From Prevotella sp. (GTDB lineage: Bacteria > Bacteroidota > Bacteroidia > Bacteroidales > Bacteroidaceae), in NCBI GenBank assembly GCA_017508965.1, contig JAFWQT010000064.1, forward strand, positions 1 to 32,567: a DNA stretch of 32,567 bases, written 5' to 3'. How positions within the stretch are numbered: position 1 is the first letter of the stretch; each line of letters opens with the position of its first letter. The position numbers and the translations under genes are program-made. A model generated the notes under the pieces. The model saw only the letters and a list, made by a program, of their open reading frames with translations, did no database searches and was not told the DNA's origin. This document shows, one piece after another, positions 3,858-22,103 of the stretch.

Positions 3858-4807
3858 AGGAAATAAATGATTAATAAGAACGTAAGTGCCCAAAGCACTA
3901 CCACCACCTGCGTGAACCTGTCTTGCAGCATCATCTTCGTCGGGTCGCCGCTCTTTTTGTCAACCACCGTAATCTGGATATATCGCAGCAGTCCAAGCAG
4001 CACGTAAGCCGTCGTCAGATACAGATAATCGGTATGCACACGGGCCACCACTTCGGGCGATATCGTGTACATGATATAGCACACCAGCGTCACCGAGGCC
4101 GTGATGGTGATGGCCTGGTTGATGAACGTCAGGTTGTAGCGGATGGTATTCTTCCGGGGTGCTTCTCCAGTGGTCTCCATTCGGATGACATCGTCGCGCC
4201 GCTTGGCAAACGAGAGGAAAAGCGTCAGCAGGAAGGTCATCATCACAATCCACTTACTCAGCACAATCCCCGTGGCAAAGCCACCGGCCAGCAGCCTGAG
4301 CACGAACCCGAAGGCGATGATACAAACATCCACGATGGCATACTTTTTCAGCCAGGCACAATAGGCCAGGTTCAGCACAAAGTAGAACAATAGAACCCCC
4401 ACCAAACCTCCCCAAGAAGAAACCCCCACCAACCTCCCCGAGGGGAGGCTTTCAGAAGCGGATTCAATCTCTCCCCCTCGGGGGAGCAGGAGGGGGGTCG
4501 GCAGTAGGGTGGTCAGCATCGCCAACACCACCATCAGCGCCATCAGCCCGTAGGCAGCCTTCATGGTAATAGCCCCCGAGGCAATCGGCCGTTTGCACTT
4601 CACCGGATGCCGCCGGTCAGCCTCCACGTCGATGATGTCGTTAAAACAATAAATCGACGACGCTATGAAGCAGAAAGCCACGAAAGCCACCAGCGAGGCA
4701 TACACCGTAGCCCCGTTGGTCAGTGCCCCGCCGAAAAACATCGGCACCAGCACAAACACATTCTTCAGCCATTGTTTCGGCCGTATCAGCCGCAAAACGT
4801 CCTTCAT
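3854..4807 (-). CDS. UbiA-family prenyltransferase (possible decaprenyl-phosphate phosphoribosyltransferase type)
   Basis: This is an integral membrane prenyltransferase of 317 residues. The start LIRPKQWLKNVFVLVPMFF is characteristic of the UbiA subgroup that includes DPPR synthase. The Asp-rich motif NDIIDVEADRRHP, expected to bind Mg-prenyl phosphate, follows at about residue 56. About eight to nine membrane segments are present. The ATG at 4807 is preferred over an upstream ATG at 4843, because a strong promoter -7 element (TACCTTTG, 4813-4820) lies between them. Only five bases separate it from the ATG, so the mRNA may be leaderless. About 36 residues after LTTLLP are encoded by GC-rich repeat sequence (LLLPRGGE and a degenerate second copy), in frame. 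The gene overlaps the HAD gene by four bases. Substrate identity is inferred. Confidence 0.82.
   Translation of the reverse strand: MKDVLRLIRPKQWLKNVFVLVPMFFGGALTNGATVYASLVAFVAFCFIASSIYCFNDIIDVEADRRHPVKCKRPIASGAITMKAAYGLMALMVVLAMLTTLLPTPLLLPRGGEIESASESLPSGRLVGVSSWGGLVGVLLFYFVLNLAYCAWLKKYAIVDVCIIAFGFVLRLLAGGFATGIVLSKWIVMMTFLLTLFLSFAKRRDDVIRMETTGEAPRKNTIRYNLTFINQAITITASVTLVCYIMYTISPEVVARVHTDYLYLTTAYVLLGLLRYIQITVVDKKSGDPTKMMLQDRFTQVVVVLWALTFLLIIYFL
4395..4500. repeat. GC-rich PLPKGG-type repeats inside ubiA
   Basis: Two degenerate copies beginning AACCCCCACCAA are followed by a copy with core CCCCCTCGGGGGAGCAGG. The whole insert keeps the reading frame. Confidence 0.75.
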
Positions 4808-4812
4808 GGTTG

Positions 4813-4844
4813 CAAAGGTACGATTAAGCGAGCACAAATGCAAA
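4813..4844 (-). promoter_or_regulatory. ubiA promoter, Bacteroidetes type
   Basis: On the minus strand TTTG (4841-4844), a 20-nt spacer and TACCTTTG (4813-4820) match the Bacteroidetes sigma consensus. The start codon begins five bases after the -7 element, so the expected transcription start nearly coincides with the ATG. Confidence 0.7.
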
Positions 4845-4885
4845 TAAAACTTGTTTTAATTTGCTTTGTCGAACGAAAGTACCTT
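4813..4885 (-). repeat. Dispersed promoter module, copy at ubiA
   Basis: The whole minus-strand segment from AAGGTACTTTCGTTCG to CGTACCTTTGC is similar to 31362-31437 upstream of purL. They share an inverted AAGGTAC/GTACCTT pair at the ends, CGTTCG-CAA, a T-rich middle and TTGTGCTC-CTTA. This is far more than a bare promoter consensus. Confidence 0.55.
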
Positions 4886-5043
4886 ATCAAAAGATAGCAT
4901 AAAAAAAATGATACGGCGAAGAGAATACCTACTTATTTTAGTTCTTCATCGCTGCAAAAACTTTTCACCTTTCCTCATAACATATTGAAGAACAGTGCTT
5001 TGCGGTGAAGGGTTCGCCGCCCATGCCCGCAGACGCTATCCGC

Positions 5044-9673: not shown

Positions 9674-10762
9674 TCACTTCTTCAGAGGCTTGATGAGCAG
9701 AGAAACGAGGCGGCTGAGGAGCCAGGCTAGGGGGATGGTGAAGGCGAACATCAGGAGGAAGGTGGGCCAGTAACCCAGGTGGTAGGGTCTGATGTAGACC
9801 AGCACGAAATGGATATGGATGAGATAGATTTCGAGGGAGATGCCGCCCACGAAAGTGAAAAAGCGAATCAACCACTGGGGGGCATGACGGAAGAACCAAC
9901 ACATCAGGAACATGCCGCTGACAGCCAAGGGAATGTAGACCATGCGCTCGGCGGCAGGCGGGAAGGCTCCACTCCGATGACCTTCCACATAGACGCAATA
10001 CCAGAGGGAGAGGAGGAAAATAAATGAAGAGTGAAGAGTGAAGAGTGAAGAATCCTTCCCCCTTGAGGGGGGATTGAGGGGGGCCTTCACCAACTCTCCC
10101 GCATTAATGCCCAACAGGAAGACGGGGATGCGGCTCCAGAAGATTTCCACATAGCCGACGGATTTCCAGAGTGGAGGCCAGTCGCGCACCAGCAGATACC
10201 AGAGAATCGTCACTAGCGGAAGCCATCGCCAGATGCGGTCGCGCTGGATAAGGCGCATATAGAAGGGGGCGATGAGATAGAGGGCCATAATGGCGGGAAC
10301 GAACCAGAACGTGAGGTCGTCGATACGCCAGAAACTCCAGCCCACCAGGATGTTGGCAATGAGATGAATCAGATTGGGACTGTAACCGCCGCCATTGGGC
10401 CAGTATTGGGGAATGTAATAAAGACTGGCAATGATGAGCCATGCGGGATAAAGGCGGAGGAAGCGCCGTAAATAGAATGAACCCACCCTATGTCCCTCCC
10501 GAAGGGAGGGATTTTCATTACTATTTGGCGCATCATCCAATTCCCCATCCCTTCGGGAGGGGGCAAGGGGGTGGGTTTTTGTCCACGAGTACCACAAGCC
10601 GATGCCGCTGAGGAACAGGAACATATCCACGCCATTGTTGCCGCAGCGCATCAGCCCGTAGAAGGCATCGCTGCGCGAGAGGGGCACATGGAAAAGCATC
10701 ACGATAATCATCGCAAAGCCCATCAACGGTGCACGGTATCGGCTGAGGTCGTTCCAGTTCAT
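9674..10762 (-). CDS. Acyltransferase-3 family membrane protein with two repeat-encoded inserts
   Basis: This 362-residue protein starts MNWNDLSRYRAPLMGFAMII and belongs to the acyltransferase-3 family, integral membrane enzymes that O-acetylate or otherwise acylate surface sugars. Family features seen are RAPLMG...MLFH in the first helix, FLSGIGLWYSW near residue 52, SFYLRRFLRLYPAW after it and about ten membrane segments. Two stretches look foreign. Residues ~61-95 (from THPLAPSRRDGE to SLREGHRVG) come from two inverted GC-rich palindromes. Residues ~225-247 (APLNPPSRGKDSSLFTLHSS) come from a palindrome plus four GTGAAGA heptamers. Both stay in frame and fall in loops next to membrane segments. 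One heptamer more or less would shift the frame, so this gene may be phase-variable. It follows the disrupted second acyltransferase after 47 bp. Acceptor sugar unknown. Confidence 0.82.
   Translation of the reverse strand: MNWNDLSRYRAPLMGFAMIIVMLFHVPLSRSDAFYGLMRCGNNGVDMFLFLSGIGLWYSWTKTHPLAPSRRDGELDDAPNSNENPSLREGHRVGSFYLRRFLRLYPAWLIIASLYYIPQYWPNGGGYSPNLIHLIANILVGWSFWRIDDLTFWFVPAIMALYLIAPFYMRLIQRDRIWRWLPLVTILWYLLVRDWPPLWKSVGYVEIFWSRIPVFLLGINAGELVKAPLNPPSRGKDSSLFTLHSSFIFLLSLWYCVYVEGHRSGAFPPAAERMVYIPLAVSGMFLMCWFFRHAPQWLIRFFTFVGGISLEIYLIHIHFVLVYIRPYHLGYWPTFLLMFAFTIPLAWLLSRLVSLLIKPLKK
10024..10051 (+). repeat. GTGAAGA heptamer array, four units, inside a gene
   Basis: One ATGAAGA and three GTGAAGA units run without interruption on the plus strand and abut the palindrome at 10052. 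On the coding strand they read SSLFTLHSS. The array lies in the frame of the minus-strand acyltransferase. Confidence 0.85.
10052..10087. repeat. GC-rich PLPKGG-type palindrome in acyltransferase gene
   Basis: The core CCCCCTTGAGGGGGG plus ATTGAGGGGGGCC is directly joined to the heptamer array and translated as APLNPPSRGK. Confidence 0.75.
10479..10580. repeat. Inverted pair of GC-rich palindromes (MITE-like, about 100 bp)
   Basis: The left copy starts ACCCACCC and has core TCCCTCCCGAAGGGAGGGA. The right copy is its inverted counterpart, with TCCCTTCGGGAGGG and ending GGGGGTGGGT. The whole unit sits in frame in the acyltransferase gene. The same outward-facing layout is seen at 27546-27651. 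Confidence 0.75.
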
Positions 10763-10804: not shown

Positions 10805-11130
10805 ACAGGTTATGGTTTAGGGATGTAACGTAGAATCCATTTGAGTAGCATGGCCAGGGCCACAGACGAGAGCAGGTAGATGAAGATGCCGCCGTAGATG
10901 TCGACCTTTCGGTAATGACCGATAATCAGTTCGCGCATCACGGGGTGCATCACAAAGAGCATGGCAGAGATGCTGCCGAGCCAACTAAGAGGAGAGAGAA
11001 AACCCTTGCTGGCAATAAGGAGCTTTACGGTAGCAATGGCACCCGTTACCACAAAGGCGGGAACGAACAACCACGTCCAGTAATTCAGGCTGCCGAAAAG
11101 GACTAAAAGAGCGGAAAGAAAAATAATAAA

Positions 11131-11269
11131 TGTAGAGTGTAGAGTGTAGAATGTAGAGTTATGATTACTTGTTGAAGCTGTATTTTGAGCAGATTCCGCG
11201 CTTGACAGGTTATCACAATTGCTTTTCCCTTCGGCCAGCGACCGTTGGTTCTCCATTCTCCATTCTTCC
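11131..11269. repeat. Heptamer-flanked element, type D, inside acyltransferase gene
   Basis: The left side has four TGTAGAG/TGTAGAA units (11131-11158) then TTATGATTAC. The right side has GTTATCACAATT (from 11209) and three TTCTCCA-type units (11249-11269). The same arrangement is found at 21987-22095, which suggests a distinct dispersed element about 110-140 bp long. Confidence 0.7.
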
Positions 11270-11662
11270 TGCCCACACGCCCATGCAGAAGGGCAACAGT
11301 CCGCCAATGAAATTATAGCGGATATAGTTGAGCCAGTCCTGACTTTCGGCGAAACATGCTTCCAAAACAACAGAACCCAACGCCAATGCCAGCAACAGCC
11401 ACTTGCTTCGCCAACGATGTATGACCAGGATGTAAAGGGCATACAACTGCAACATCAGGCCGAAGAACCAATAGGGACCGGGCTTGATGATGTGGTCGGG
11501 ATCGAAATATAGGAAGTTGATGGTCATGGTGAGCTGTGTGAGCACATGGTCCCATGAATATACCTGCGCCCCGTCGCTGTGGCGGAGCAGATACACGCCG
11601 ATGAACAACAGGTAGCCGATGATCATCAGGCGGAAAAGCTTGAGGAAATGCTTCTTAATAAA

Positions 11663-11713
11663 GTGAAGAGTGAAGAATCTCCCCTCCCTCCGGGAGGGGC
11701 TGGGGCTGGGCCT
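11663..11713. repeat. Two GTGAAGA heptamers joined to a PLPEGG-type palindrome
   Basis: Units at 11663-11669 and 11670-11676 abut a palindrome with core CCCCTCCCTCCGGGAGGGG. On the coding strand the palindrome reads AQPQPLPEGGE. This is the first frameshift site of the disrupted acyltransferase. Confidence 0.85.
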
Positions 11714-11980
11714 CATATTTCTTCACCAGTCCGTAGCCGCTGATGAAAAGGAATATGGGTACGCCATAGTGGCCAAGAAACGAGAAGAAATGGATGAACA
11801 GGTCGCTGTCGAGAGAGAAGAGCTTATCGAGGAACTGCATGGGCCGCTCAGCATCGAACTTGTACTCGTTTTCCTTCACGGCAAAACCGAGGAAGTGGCA
11901 ATAGTTGTGCAGGATAATTCCTAGAATGGCAATGCCACGCAATGCCGACGATTCCGTGCGGCTCAACAATTCCCCACTCC

Positions 11981-13846
11981 TCATTGTTTCATTTTCTCTT
12001 TTTCCCCATTTATTACTGCATCATAGTCGGTCTTATCCTTCAGGATGCGCTTGCGGGCCTCGTCGTACTTGATGCTCAGCAGATTGAGTTCGCGGCGATA
12101 GGATTTGGTGTGAATACCGCCCAGATAGACCAGCATGTGGGCCAGGGCATCGGTCATGAACGGCTTATGAAGCGCCTGCTCCACCTGCCAAACCACGTCG
12201 GGATGCGCCTCCTTGTAGGACGGCGACATATAAATCCAGAACGGAATCTCGTATTCATAGCGGGCCATGTGGGCATTAATTTCGGAAGCATGGTTGCGGC
12301 AGATGAAGTGAACATCGTTGTCGTACACCTGCTCACCGTGGTCGGGAACATAGAACACGATGGCCTCCTGCTGTTCGAAGCGACGGATAATCTGGTCGAC
12401 GATGGAGTCGTTGTAGAGCAGCGAATTATCGTACCATGCCAAACGCTGCCGTTCGGCGGCATTCAACTTCGGGCGGTCGTAGTCGTCGGCCTTGAATTTC
12501 ATCTTCGACTTCGGGCAGCGGGTACGGTAATCCACATGCTGCCCCTTCAGATGGAAGATAATCAGATTATGCGCGGTGTTCTCGGACTTCAGGCGGTCGT
12601 AGTCGTTCAGAAGACCTTCGTCGAAATAACTGAGCTTATCGTTGCGGGTATCGAACATAGCCTTCGAGAGCTCGGGATTGTTGAGGAAGAAACCGCCAGA
12701 GAAATCATAGACGGCCTCTTTAGCCTGCGGCAGGAACTGATTGGTGAGGAAGGTCACATGATAGCCGGCCTTGCGGAACACCTCGGGGAACAAAGGATAG
12801 TCGCTCCACTCGCCGCTGTCGCCCACACAATAGAGCGAGAACAGGTGCTTGAAGACGAAACTGGTCAGGTTCCACGGAGCCACCACATTGGTGAACGGAT
12901 AAAGCTCGCCGTTCATGGCGCGCGCCAGCTGTCGGGGCGTGGTGGGCTTTTCATAGCCATATAGCTGGGCGTGACTCTTATTGTAGCTCTCGCCGATGAT
13001 GAGCACGATATTCGGACTCTTAAACGAGCAGGAATCCACGTCCACATGGTCTTCGCGTTCGATGATGGTGCCTACCTGCGTAGAGGTGAGGCGGTTGGCA
13101 TAGAGCGAAAAGGCCAGCCTGTAGACAGGCTGATAGAGAACAGCCTTGTCGGGCTTGGTGAGTTCATGCTCCACATCGCCGATACGGTCGTACGACATGA
13201 GTCTCGACATTGCCTGTTTGTTGGGCCAGGTCTGCCAGACGCAATAGCCGAAGAAAGCAGCACATGCAAGTCCCATCACCACCTTCACCACCCTTTCGGC
13301 CTCGGGTGTCAGCTGCGGACCCGCCGGCCGATGGTATTCGCGATAGCGGTAGGAATGCTTGGGGCGCGTCTTACGCCACCAGAAGATGCTCCACGCCACA
13401 TGCACTAGCATAAGCAAGAGCACCCATCCCGTTCGTCCGAACACGATTGACGGCGAAAGGAAAGTGGAAATGAACTCGGCCGCCTCGCGCCCGTTGGTCT
13501 CTCCCACCAGCAACAGCATGGTAGGCGTAAGCGTGGAATCGAACTTTGAGAAACAGAACACGTCGGCAATGGCGACGCCATAGGCAATGACATAGAACAG
13601 ACGCTTCACCCATTTCCTGACGACCTTAGGCAAAATCGACAGCAGTACGCAAAGCAGATACACATCGGCAAACAGCTCGACCCACCACAAGGAATAGGCA
13701 TGAGCCTTGGGATTGTCGGGAACCACGGCAAACGTGCATATCGTCCCGAGCAGATACATAAATATGAAGAAGGCGCTGTTTTGGCGAATAGGATGAAAGA
13801 ACAGGCCCAAAAGTCTCACAAAAAAATTTTCTCTTCGCTTTCTCAT
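11981..13846 (-). CDS. Membrane phosphoethanolamine-transferase-like protein (alkaline phosphatase/sulfatase fold)
   Basis: This 621-residue protein has about five N-terminal membrane segments (first ~170 residues) and a large extracytoplasmic sulfatase-fold domain. NIVLIIGESYNKSH provides the first metal ligand pair; NLTSFVFKHLFS holds the likely threonine nucleophile; IIFHLKGQHVDY and FYVPDHGEQVYD give further metal ligands. This is the layout of EptA/CptA phosphoethanolamine transferases, which decorate lipid A or core sugars, sometimes affecting polymyxin sensitivity. The lipid or sugar acceptor cannot be read from sequence. A promoter-like TTTG-N20-TAATTTCG precedes it. Its stop overlaps the start of the acyltransferase gene by ATGA, so the three genes 13846-9674 appear to be one surface-modification operon. 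Confidence 0.83.
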   Translation of the reverse strand: MRKRRENFFVRLLGLFFHPIRQNSAFFIFMYLLGTICTFAVVPDNPKAHAYSLWWVELFADVYLLCVLLSILPKVVRKWVKRLFYVIAYGVAIADVFCFSKFDSTLTPTMLLLVGETNGREAAEFISTFLSPSIVFGRTGWVLLLMLVHVAWSIFWWRKTRPKHSYRYREYHRPAGPQLTPEAERVVKVVMGLACAAFFGYCVWQTWPNKQAMSRLMSYDRIGDVEHELTKPDKAVLYQPVYRLAFSLYANRLTSTQVGTIIEREDHVDVDSCSFKSPNIVLIIGESYNKSHAQLYGYEKPTTPRQLARAMNGELYPFTNVVAPWNLTSFVFKHLFSLYCVGDSGEWSDYPLFPEVFRKAGYHVTFLTNQFLPQAKEAVYDFSGGFFLNNPELSKAMFDTRNDKLSYFDEGLLNDYDRLKSENTAHNLIIFHLKGQHVDYRTRCPKSKMKFKADDYDRPKLNAAERQRLAWYDNSLLYNDSIVDQIIRRFEQQEAIVFYVPDHGEQVYDNDVHFICRNHASEINAHMARYEYEIPFWIYMSPSYKEAHPDVVWQVEQALHKPFMTDALAHMLVYLGGIHTKSYRRELNLLSIKYDEARKRILKDKTDYDAVINGEKEKMKQ

Positions 13847-21973: not shown

Positions 21974-21986
21974 TTTTAATTGAAAT

Positions 21987-22095
21987 TGTAGAGTGTAGAA
22001 TGTAGAATTATGATTACCAGGCAAGCCTAGCATTTGCGCAGCATGCTGTCTCCGACAGTAATCATAATTCTACATTTTCCATTCTCCATTCTACA
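21987..22095. repeat. Heptamer-flanked inverted element, type D, between rseP and the radical SAM gene
   Basis: The left arm (21987-22017) has three TGTAGAG/TGTAGAA units and TTATGATTAC. The right arm (22058-22095) has GTAATCATAA and four TTCTACA/TTCTCCA-type units. The innermost 17 bp are perfectly complementary. The 40-nt centre holds small palindromes AGGC-AA-GCCT and TGTC-TCC-GACA. The element ends eight bases before the next ATG. Confidence 0.8.
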
Positions 22096-22103
22096 TTAGA
22101 AAA

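Follow-up and report, generated by a model that had tools for sequence, protein, structure and literature searches.

In Haemophilus the number of heptamers controls hmw1A, an SSR contingency locus, and the tracts of such loci are expected to have many units. Heptanucleotide repeats are over-represented in many bacteria and, in the portions of two reports used here, are described mainly between genes: GGGAATC and GGGGAYT in Xanthomonas and Nostoc, and TAACTGA in Beggiatoaceae. TAACTGA is also reported from five Bacteroidetes, and in several Bacteroidetes and Cyanobacteria the arrays reach 43 copies (PMC4692102, PMC4679880). Rickettsia palindromic elements (RPE), about 150 bp long, lie in frame within many unrelated protein genes, according to an excerpt of PMC10969869. 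BrickBuilt, a tandem-repeat MITE of Porphyromonas gingivalis (Bacteroidales), is given as always intergenic in the relevant part of its description (PMC4596501). For Bacteroides, the mechanisms named in the sections available from a 2025 phase-variation review are inversion systems, and the words "heptamer" and "heptanucleotide" are absent (PMC11868660). Searches of one open-licence literature library turned up no account, for Prevotella, of heptamers inside genes or of hairpins with heptamer arms.

The window, by which we mean the whole stretch of DNA analysed here (32,567 bp), is one contig of a 188-contig draft genome of the Prevotella group, 71% complete, rather than the isolate sequence that the initial annotation took it for; the nearest named matches are MAGs, Prevotella sp. 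RGIG2694 (goat omasum) and RUG12994. It holds two Acyl_transf_3 genes, AT1 and AT2, next to a sulfatase-domain gene whose stop is overlapped by the start of AT1 (Table 1). AT1 had been annotated as a candidate acyltransferase contingency locus, broken into three frames at two heptamer tracts (GTGAAGA and TTCTCCA) that are each one unit out of frame, and otherwise open. The three frames and the place of the breaks are borne out. The stop codons leave frame 0 open as far as 11657, frame +1 between 11725 and 11215, and frame +2 between 11457 and 10812, so that each tract falls where two frames are both open. Loop 1 measures 61 bp and loop 2 148 bp; both lengths are 1 mod 3, and each junction is therefore +1. 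Two of the pieces match PF01757 above its curated cut-off of 31 bits (38.7 and 33.9 bits; E 8e-10 and 2e-8), and profile search with the C-terminal piece alone gave no PF01757 match. That deleting one unit at each tract would join the frames is weak evidence, since a broken frame has just two offsets and one heptamer more or fewer will always fit. The 386 residues that the initial annotation gave for the joined reading agree in size with the stop-to-stop ORFs of the homologues at loci L039 (385 residues) and L040 (383).

Aligned piecewise, the conserved segments of AT1 are gap-free against both of these homologues and carry no further stop or indel; in its best segment the middle piece is 86% identical to L039 and 74% to L040. 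Extreme ends aside, length differences within the coding region are confined to three loops. Close relatives have unrelated, repeat-like sequence in loops 1-3, and in L039 and L040 the ORF runs open from end to end. By sequence, these variable segments are probably inter-helix loops. The reading that we prefer, with a probability of about 0.7, is that AT1 encodes a membrane acyltransferase with permissive loops that accept foreign sequence, that these were colonised by repeats tolerated in frame, and that they have lately gone out of frame in this copy.

Table 1. Positions in the window of AT1, its loop inserts, neighboring genes and a reference hairpin
Feature	Coordinates	Strand	Basis or remark
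Acyl_transf_3 gene AT1, split over three frames	10810..11984	-	ORFs; PF01757 on two pieces; homologues in one frame
AT1 N-terminal piece, 109 aa, frame 0	11655..11984	-	ORF and stop positions
AT1 middle piece, 167 aa, frame +1	11213..11716	-	ORF, PF01757, stop positions
AT1 C-terminal piece, 210 aa, frame +2	10810..11442	-	ORF and stop positions
Loop-1 insert of 61 bp, made up of a GC palindrome and a heptamer tract	11651..11711	-	unalignable to L039/L040; tract common to G378
Heptamer tract GTGAAGA x2 (loop 1)	11663..11676	+	repeat scan
Family C, GC-rich palindromic dispersed repeat (loop 1)	11678..11711	+	matches in own genome
Loop-2 insert, 148 bp, family-A hairpin with family B nested	11116..11263	-	sequence comparisons
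Family-A left arm, four heptamers; tract TGTAGAG x4.1 at 11131-11159	11128..11158	+	
Family-A core in loop 2, 60 bp, start TTATGATTAC	11159..11218	+	
Family B, about 28 bp plus AATT/TTC context, nested in family-A right arm	11217..11251	+	
Family-A right-arm remnant, about two heptamers; tract TTCTCCA x2.6 at 11249-11266	11249..11269	+	
Loop 3, short GAGAGGA-type stretch; L040 version 21 bp longer	10984..11025	-	alignment
Sulfatase-domain gene	11981..13846	-	profile search: PF00884, E 2e-28; EptA/B N-terminal match under cut-off
Second Acyl_transf_3 gene AT2, single frame, follows AT1	9674..10762	-	ORF, profile match
Reference family-A hairpin, intergenic	21985..22098	.	absent at same site in G149

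Comparison with homologues, which the initial annotation had proposed, showed most of them to be whole. All three pieces lie in one ORF at 104 of the 107 fetched homologue loci (some genomes are counted twice); the remainder are an N gap (L055), a contig edge (L063) and a homologue in Hoylesella pleuritidis (L081) that is broken in loop 1, within a repeat-like insert. A draw of 398 genomes of the genus contained 70, the window's own included, with a match at E <= 1e-30, and open frames in the other 69 are 286-460 aa long against 169 in the window's genome, though their completeness was not checked one by one. An earlier search of relatives gave matches in 63 of 149 genomes, own included, with short frames in G013 (271 and 183) and in G119 (180, with one TAA, from another family). 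When 32 ORFs of genome G149 were mapped to the window, 29 fell in one frame and AT1 alone in three; of the other two multi-frame cases, one seems on reading to lie antisense to two ORFs and the other to be an upstream extension over a neighboring gene. In G150 the second acyltransferase is in two frames near the end of contig C32 (L171:19250-19608), and the copy on contig C49 in one.

The loops are also the parts measured as varying in length among 97 distinct intact homologue ORFs, spanning 12-75, 17-64 and 11-22 residues for loops 1, 2 and 3 (medians 18, 18 and 11); many distant homologues are short-looped. Besides identical ORFs this set omits L055, L063 and L081; L011 and L012 were not entered, being the same contigs as L041 and L042, and L021 was retained although a contig edge cuts it. 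At the DNA level, loop 2 of the homologue in G202 (L251) is filled in frame by inverted arrays of the unit GAGGTRC, and loop 2 in G085 (L010) has a peptide resembling that of G202.

The tracts in loops 1 and 2 are pieces of larger repeats, and parts of both inserts recur across the window's genome and in sister genomes. In loop 1 the family-C part has six further places in the genome at E <= 1e-3, and a seventh place matches the heptamer part; G378 (L249) has the same tract with additional sequence, in frame. Loop 2 holds a hairpin of family A, which consists of a heptamer arm, a core running from TTATGATTAC to GTAATCATAA, and an inverted heptamer arm, about 120 bp in all. The initial annotation overlooked its left arm, with a third and longer tract (TGTAGAG), the partner of the arm that bears TTCTCCA. 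Family B, a repeat of about 28 bp, breaks into the right arm; it recurs elsewhere in the genome at 97-100% over 35 bp, was seen in seven contexts and is nested in a similar way at L245.

Family A was found 26 times in sequence stretches sampled from the window's own and sister genomes, the copies being not all independent because some in sister genomes share a site with own copies; the core is 60 bp in 15 of the 26. Their 52 arms usually carry four units (40 arms), less often three (5) or five (3), with one arm each of seven and two units and two arms of none. One of these last belongs to L260 and the other is the right arm in loop 2, where the counting pattern gave none, about two units remain beyond family B, and the count calls for judgement because of the interruption. 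By codon score, 13 of 27 copies lie between convergent genes. The family is multi-copy and short with inverted ends, and empty sites occur in relatives: at the reference hairpin (21985-22098) the anchors are 134 bp apart in the window and 9 bp apart in G149, and at the priA site both G400 and G150 are empty. Junctions, including that of priA, were inspected for target site duplication, and the flanks proved too diverged. Among six hairpins at matching sites in the window's genome and a sister genome, the unit number of an arm differs in five; the two clearest pairs have 3 and 4, and 4 and 7, units, and in several pairs entire arms have been replaced, which is not simple slippage. In three same-site pairs (L173/L269, L191/L255 and L119/L272) the arm heptamers differ and the core, by reading, is apparently inverted.

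A complete family-A element lies in frame within priA (primosomal protein N', by its NCBIfam name) of the window's genome, at L208:1501-1624 (C53:11379-11502); this copy was left out of the 26 because its core end misses the search pattern. Five relatives differ at this spot: G149 carries heptamers but no core, G378 one array, G400 and G150 nothing, and in G085 the hairpin is built from another heptamer. The priA ORF is open in all five. In the window's genome twelve arrays join confidently coded flanks in one open frame. One of them is in AT2 (10022-10054), which also carries a dispersed repeat (10479-10576); others of the twelve are in NRPS, AAA-domain and glycosyltransferase proteins, and array-bearing proteins also include PGA_cap and DUF6080 proteins. 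Frame is not always kept: an NRPS gene of G378, 95% identical to the window genome's copy, has a net loss of 7 bp and goes out of frame at its heptamer array, in a region that is rearranged with no clean single-unit loss; G400 has the window genome's length there. The window genome's copy, an NRPS-like ORF (L127:8946-12239; compare L297), ends further on at an in-frame stop where G378 has glutamine. Three arrays (L121:3278-3309, L121:6048-6071 and L123:8115-8138) apparently encode the hydrophobic part of putative N-terminal signal peptides, in a glycoside hydrolase family 2 protein, a GH115 protein and an OmpH-like protein.

We surveyed heptamer arrays in a 320-kb sample of the genome and found 56: 28 are wholly in ORFs, 18 lie between genes and 10 touch the edge of an ORF. 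ORFs make up about 90% of the sample yet hold half its arrays, which are thus under-represented in genes. Exact period-7 runs number 16 in this sample and none in an order-1 Markov control at the same threshold. They occur in 17 of 80 relative loci, and this, with the short loops of many distant homologues, indicates that the repeats are lineage-specific. A stretch from Hallella mizrahii, a cultured relative, has two exact runs. Across 506 kb, 71 array units fit the consensus RTKNNRR with a score of 4.93 nats, where heptamers drawn at random from the genome score 2.5-2.7, and 36 of the 71 are in stop-free stretches with a positive codon score, some perhaps spurious. A frame test by codon score on 74 arrays (506 kb) left 15 whose two flanks are confidently coded on one and the same strand. 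A single frame is open through 12 of these, the frames differ in two and a stop intervenes in one, these last three reading as gene boundaries. A looser test of 58 merged places gave 22 in which the frame differs and 12 with one open frame; 11 were unclear, 7 had their flanks on opposite strands and 6 had intervening stops. AT1 is among the 22, and the remainder were judged by eye to be neighboring genes. A genome-wide signature of phase variation was set aside on the codon-score test, the frame differences other than AT1 being read, as a matter of judgement, as neighboring genes.

Other repeats were noted along the way. Exact period-22 runs are also many (12 in the own-genome sample, 27 in the 80 relative loci), GC palindromes number 53 in 506 kb, eight of them inside ORFs with a coding score on both sides, and window positions 4807-4896 hold a dispersed repeat of about 85 bp with many matches in G149, G150 and G085. 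No Rfam match at the gathering threshold was found in the window, and no relative in IMG/VR.

Under the preferred reading of colonised, permissive loops, dispersed repeats (heptamer arrays, hairpins of about 120 bp and GC palindromes) would arrive in the loops and there lengthen, shorten and be replaced, with selection usually holding the net insert length at a multiple of three. Both loop inserts being 1 mod 3, translation of the present copy would end after 109 residues, which would make it a recent null allele. The right arm in loop 2, with about two heptamers in place of the usual four, could by arithmetic alone give the observed shift, provided that the hairpin arrived in frame. We infer the order of events, and loss or gain of units as the cause of the shift; the frames, the identity of the repeats, the structure of their families, their in-frame tolerance elsewhere, the selection and the between-species differences in unit number were observed directly. 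The differences in heptamer number between species, together with the frame-broken NRPS gene of G378, make slippage plausible. Several points weigh against this reading. No in-frame ancestor of the window's AT1 copy was seen, the unit count of the right arm calls for judgement, the repeats are lineage-specific, and arrays are under-represented in genes. Two shifts arising independently within so brief a span are also much for ordinary decay, and a hypermutable switch or an assembly fault would fit them better.

Compared with L039, AT1 has a dN/dS of 0.072 over its conserved segments; the values for the sulfatase gene and AT2 are 0.049 and 0.132. By parsimony with L040 as outgroup, the window branch has 40 synonymous and 9 nonsynonymous changes, where 137 nonsynonymous would be expected if it were unconstrained, and its nonsynonymous share (9 of 49) is below that of the L039 branch (29 of 79; Fisher p 0.03). 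The unconstrained part of the branch is at most about 5%, or 11% with zero background, a rough bound since dS to L039 is about 0.9 and parsimony misses repeated changes. With the conserved segments gap-free and purifying selection strong, the breaks should be recent, reversible or artefactual. That AT1 is an old pseudogene with incidental microsatellites would account for two frameshifts, and is very improbable given this dN/dS, the absence of any other stop or indel and the low nonsynonymous share; we rejected it unless the break is very recent. Microsatellites pure and simple were likewise rejected, as the tracts are parts of dispersed repeat families. An artefact of assembly or strain mixing, in which the true AT1 is in frame and reads were misjoined through dispersed repeats, gains something from the draft state of the genome, in 188 contigs, and from both faults lying in sequence that recurs elsewhere in it. 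It is nevertheless improbable: the tracts are just 14-29 bp, short for read-based assembly, the mapped G149 ORFs are nearly all in one frame in the window (29 of 32), and twelve in-gene arrays of the same assembly are in frame.

The initial annotation's own proposal, a slipped-strand contingency locus in which frequent, reversible unit changes at both tracts switch AT1 ON and OFF within a population, seems unlikely to us, although part of it stands: the gene is out of frame at heptamer sites and was selected until very recently. As in SSR contingency loci, a tandem tract lies at the frame change and the gene is otherwise intact and selected, with an unconstrained share of at most about 5-11%; arm unit number differs in five of the six matched hairpins, loop 3 differs by 21 bp between the window and L040, and an NRPS gene of G378 is frame-broken at an array. 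But the tracts named have just 2 and 2.6 units and the third 4.1, too few for loci in which many are expected; family-A arms mostly have four, several matched hairpins show whole-arm replacement, one other clearly broken copy was met in 107 homologue loci, and 69 more genomes have open frames of 286-460 aa. Several close relatives moreover have other repeats inserted in these loops, in frame, which speaks against a dedicated locus, and the relatives, compared by sequence, do not suggest within-population switching of AT1. A broader version, which we regard as doubtful, would make the heptamer-armed hairpins undescribed small mobile repeats of the Prevotella group that colonise loops in frame, even in a replication gene such as priA, and, since every heptamer gained or lost shifts the frame, turn genes into slow or fast ON/OFF switches, with AT1 caught OFF.

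In proteins of this group, dispersed repeats spell out peptides inside enzymes (DSSLFTLHSSL, NTQHPSPN and KEERGKRK, for example), and apparently in signal peptides too. If general, such repeats would be a route to new loops and linkers; they would also leave many genes one unit from a frameshift and mislead gene prediction for assemblies from rumen and gut. They further provide a natural setting in which to ask how a 7-bp repeat is maintained by selection within a 3-bp code.

The repeats found here share features with each of the systems described above. Like hmw1A, AT1 has 7-bp units; unlike it, the AT1 tracts have about two units and lie within larger dispersed repeats. Like the repeats of Xanthomonas, Nostoc and Beggiatoaceae, those found here are tandem 7-bp units, plentiful in some genomes only; the former are described as close to one sequence, whereas here many different units share RTKNNRR, half of the arrays are in ORFs and inverted pairs form hairpins. 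With MITEs, and BrickBuilt in particular, family A has in common that it is short and multi-copy, with inverted ends and internal tandem repeats; in contrast to BrickBuilt, reported as always intergenic, it also occurs inside genes, namely in priA, where it is in frame, and in the broken AT1. Like RPE, family A lies in frame inside a protein gene, in one case with empty sites, priA; compared by description only, it differs from them in that its arms are tandem heptamers, usually four, of degenerate consensus, that it belongs to a different phylum and that many copies are intergenic.
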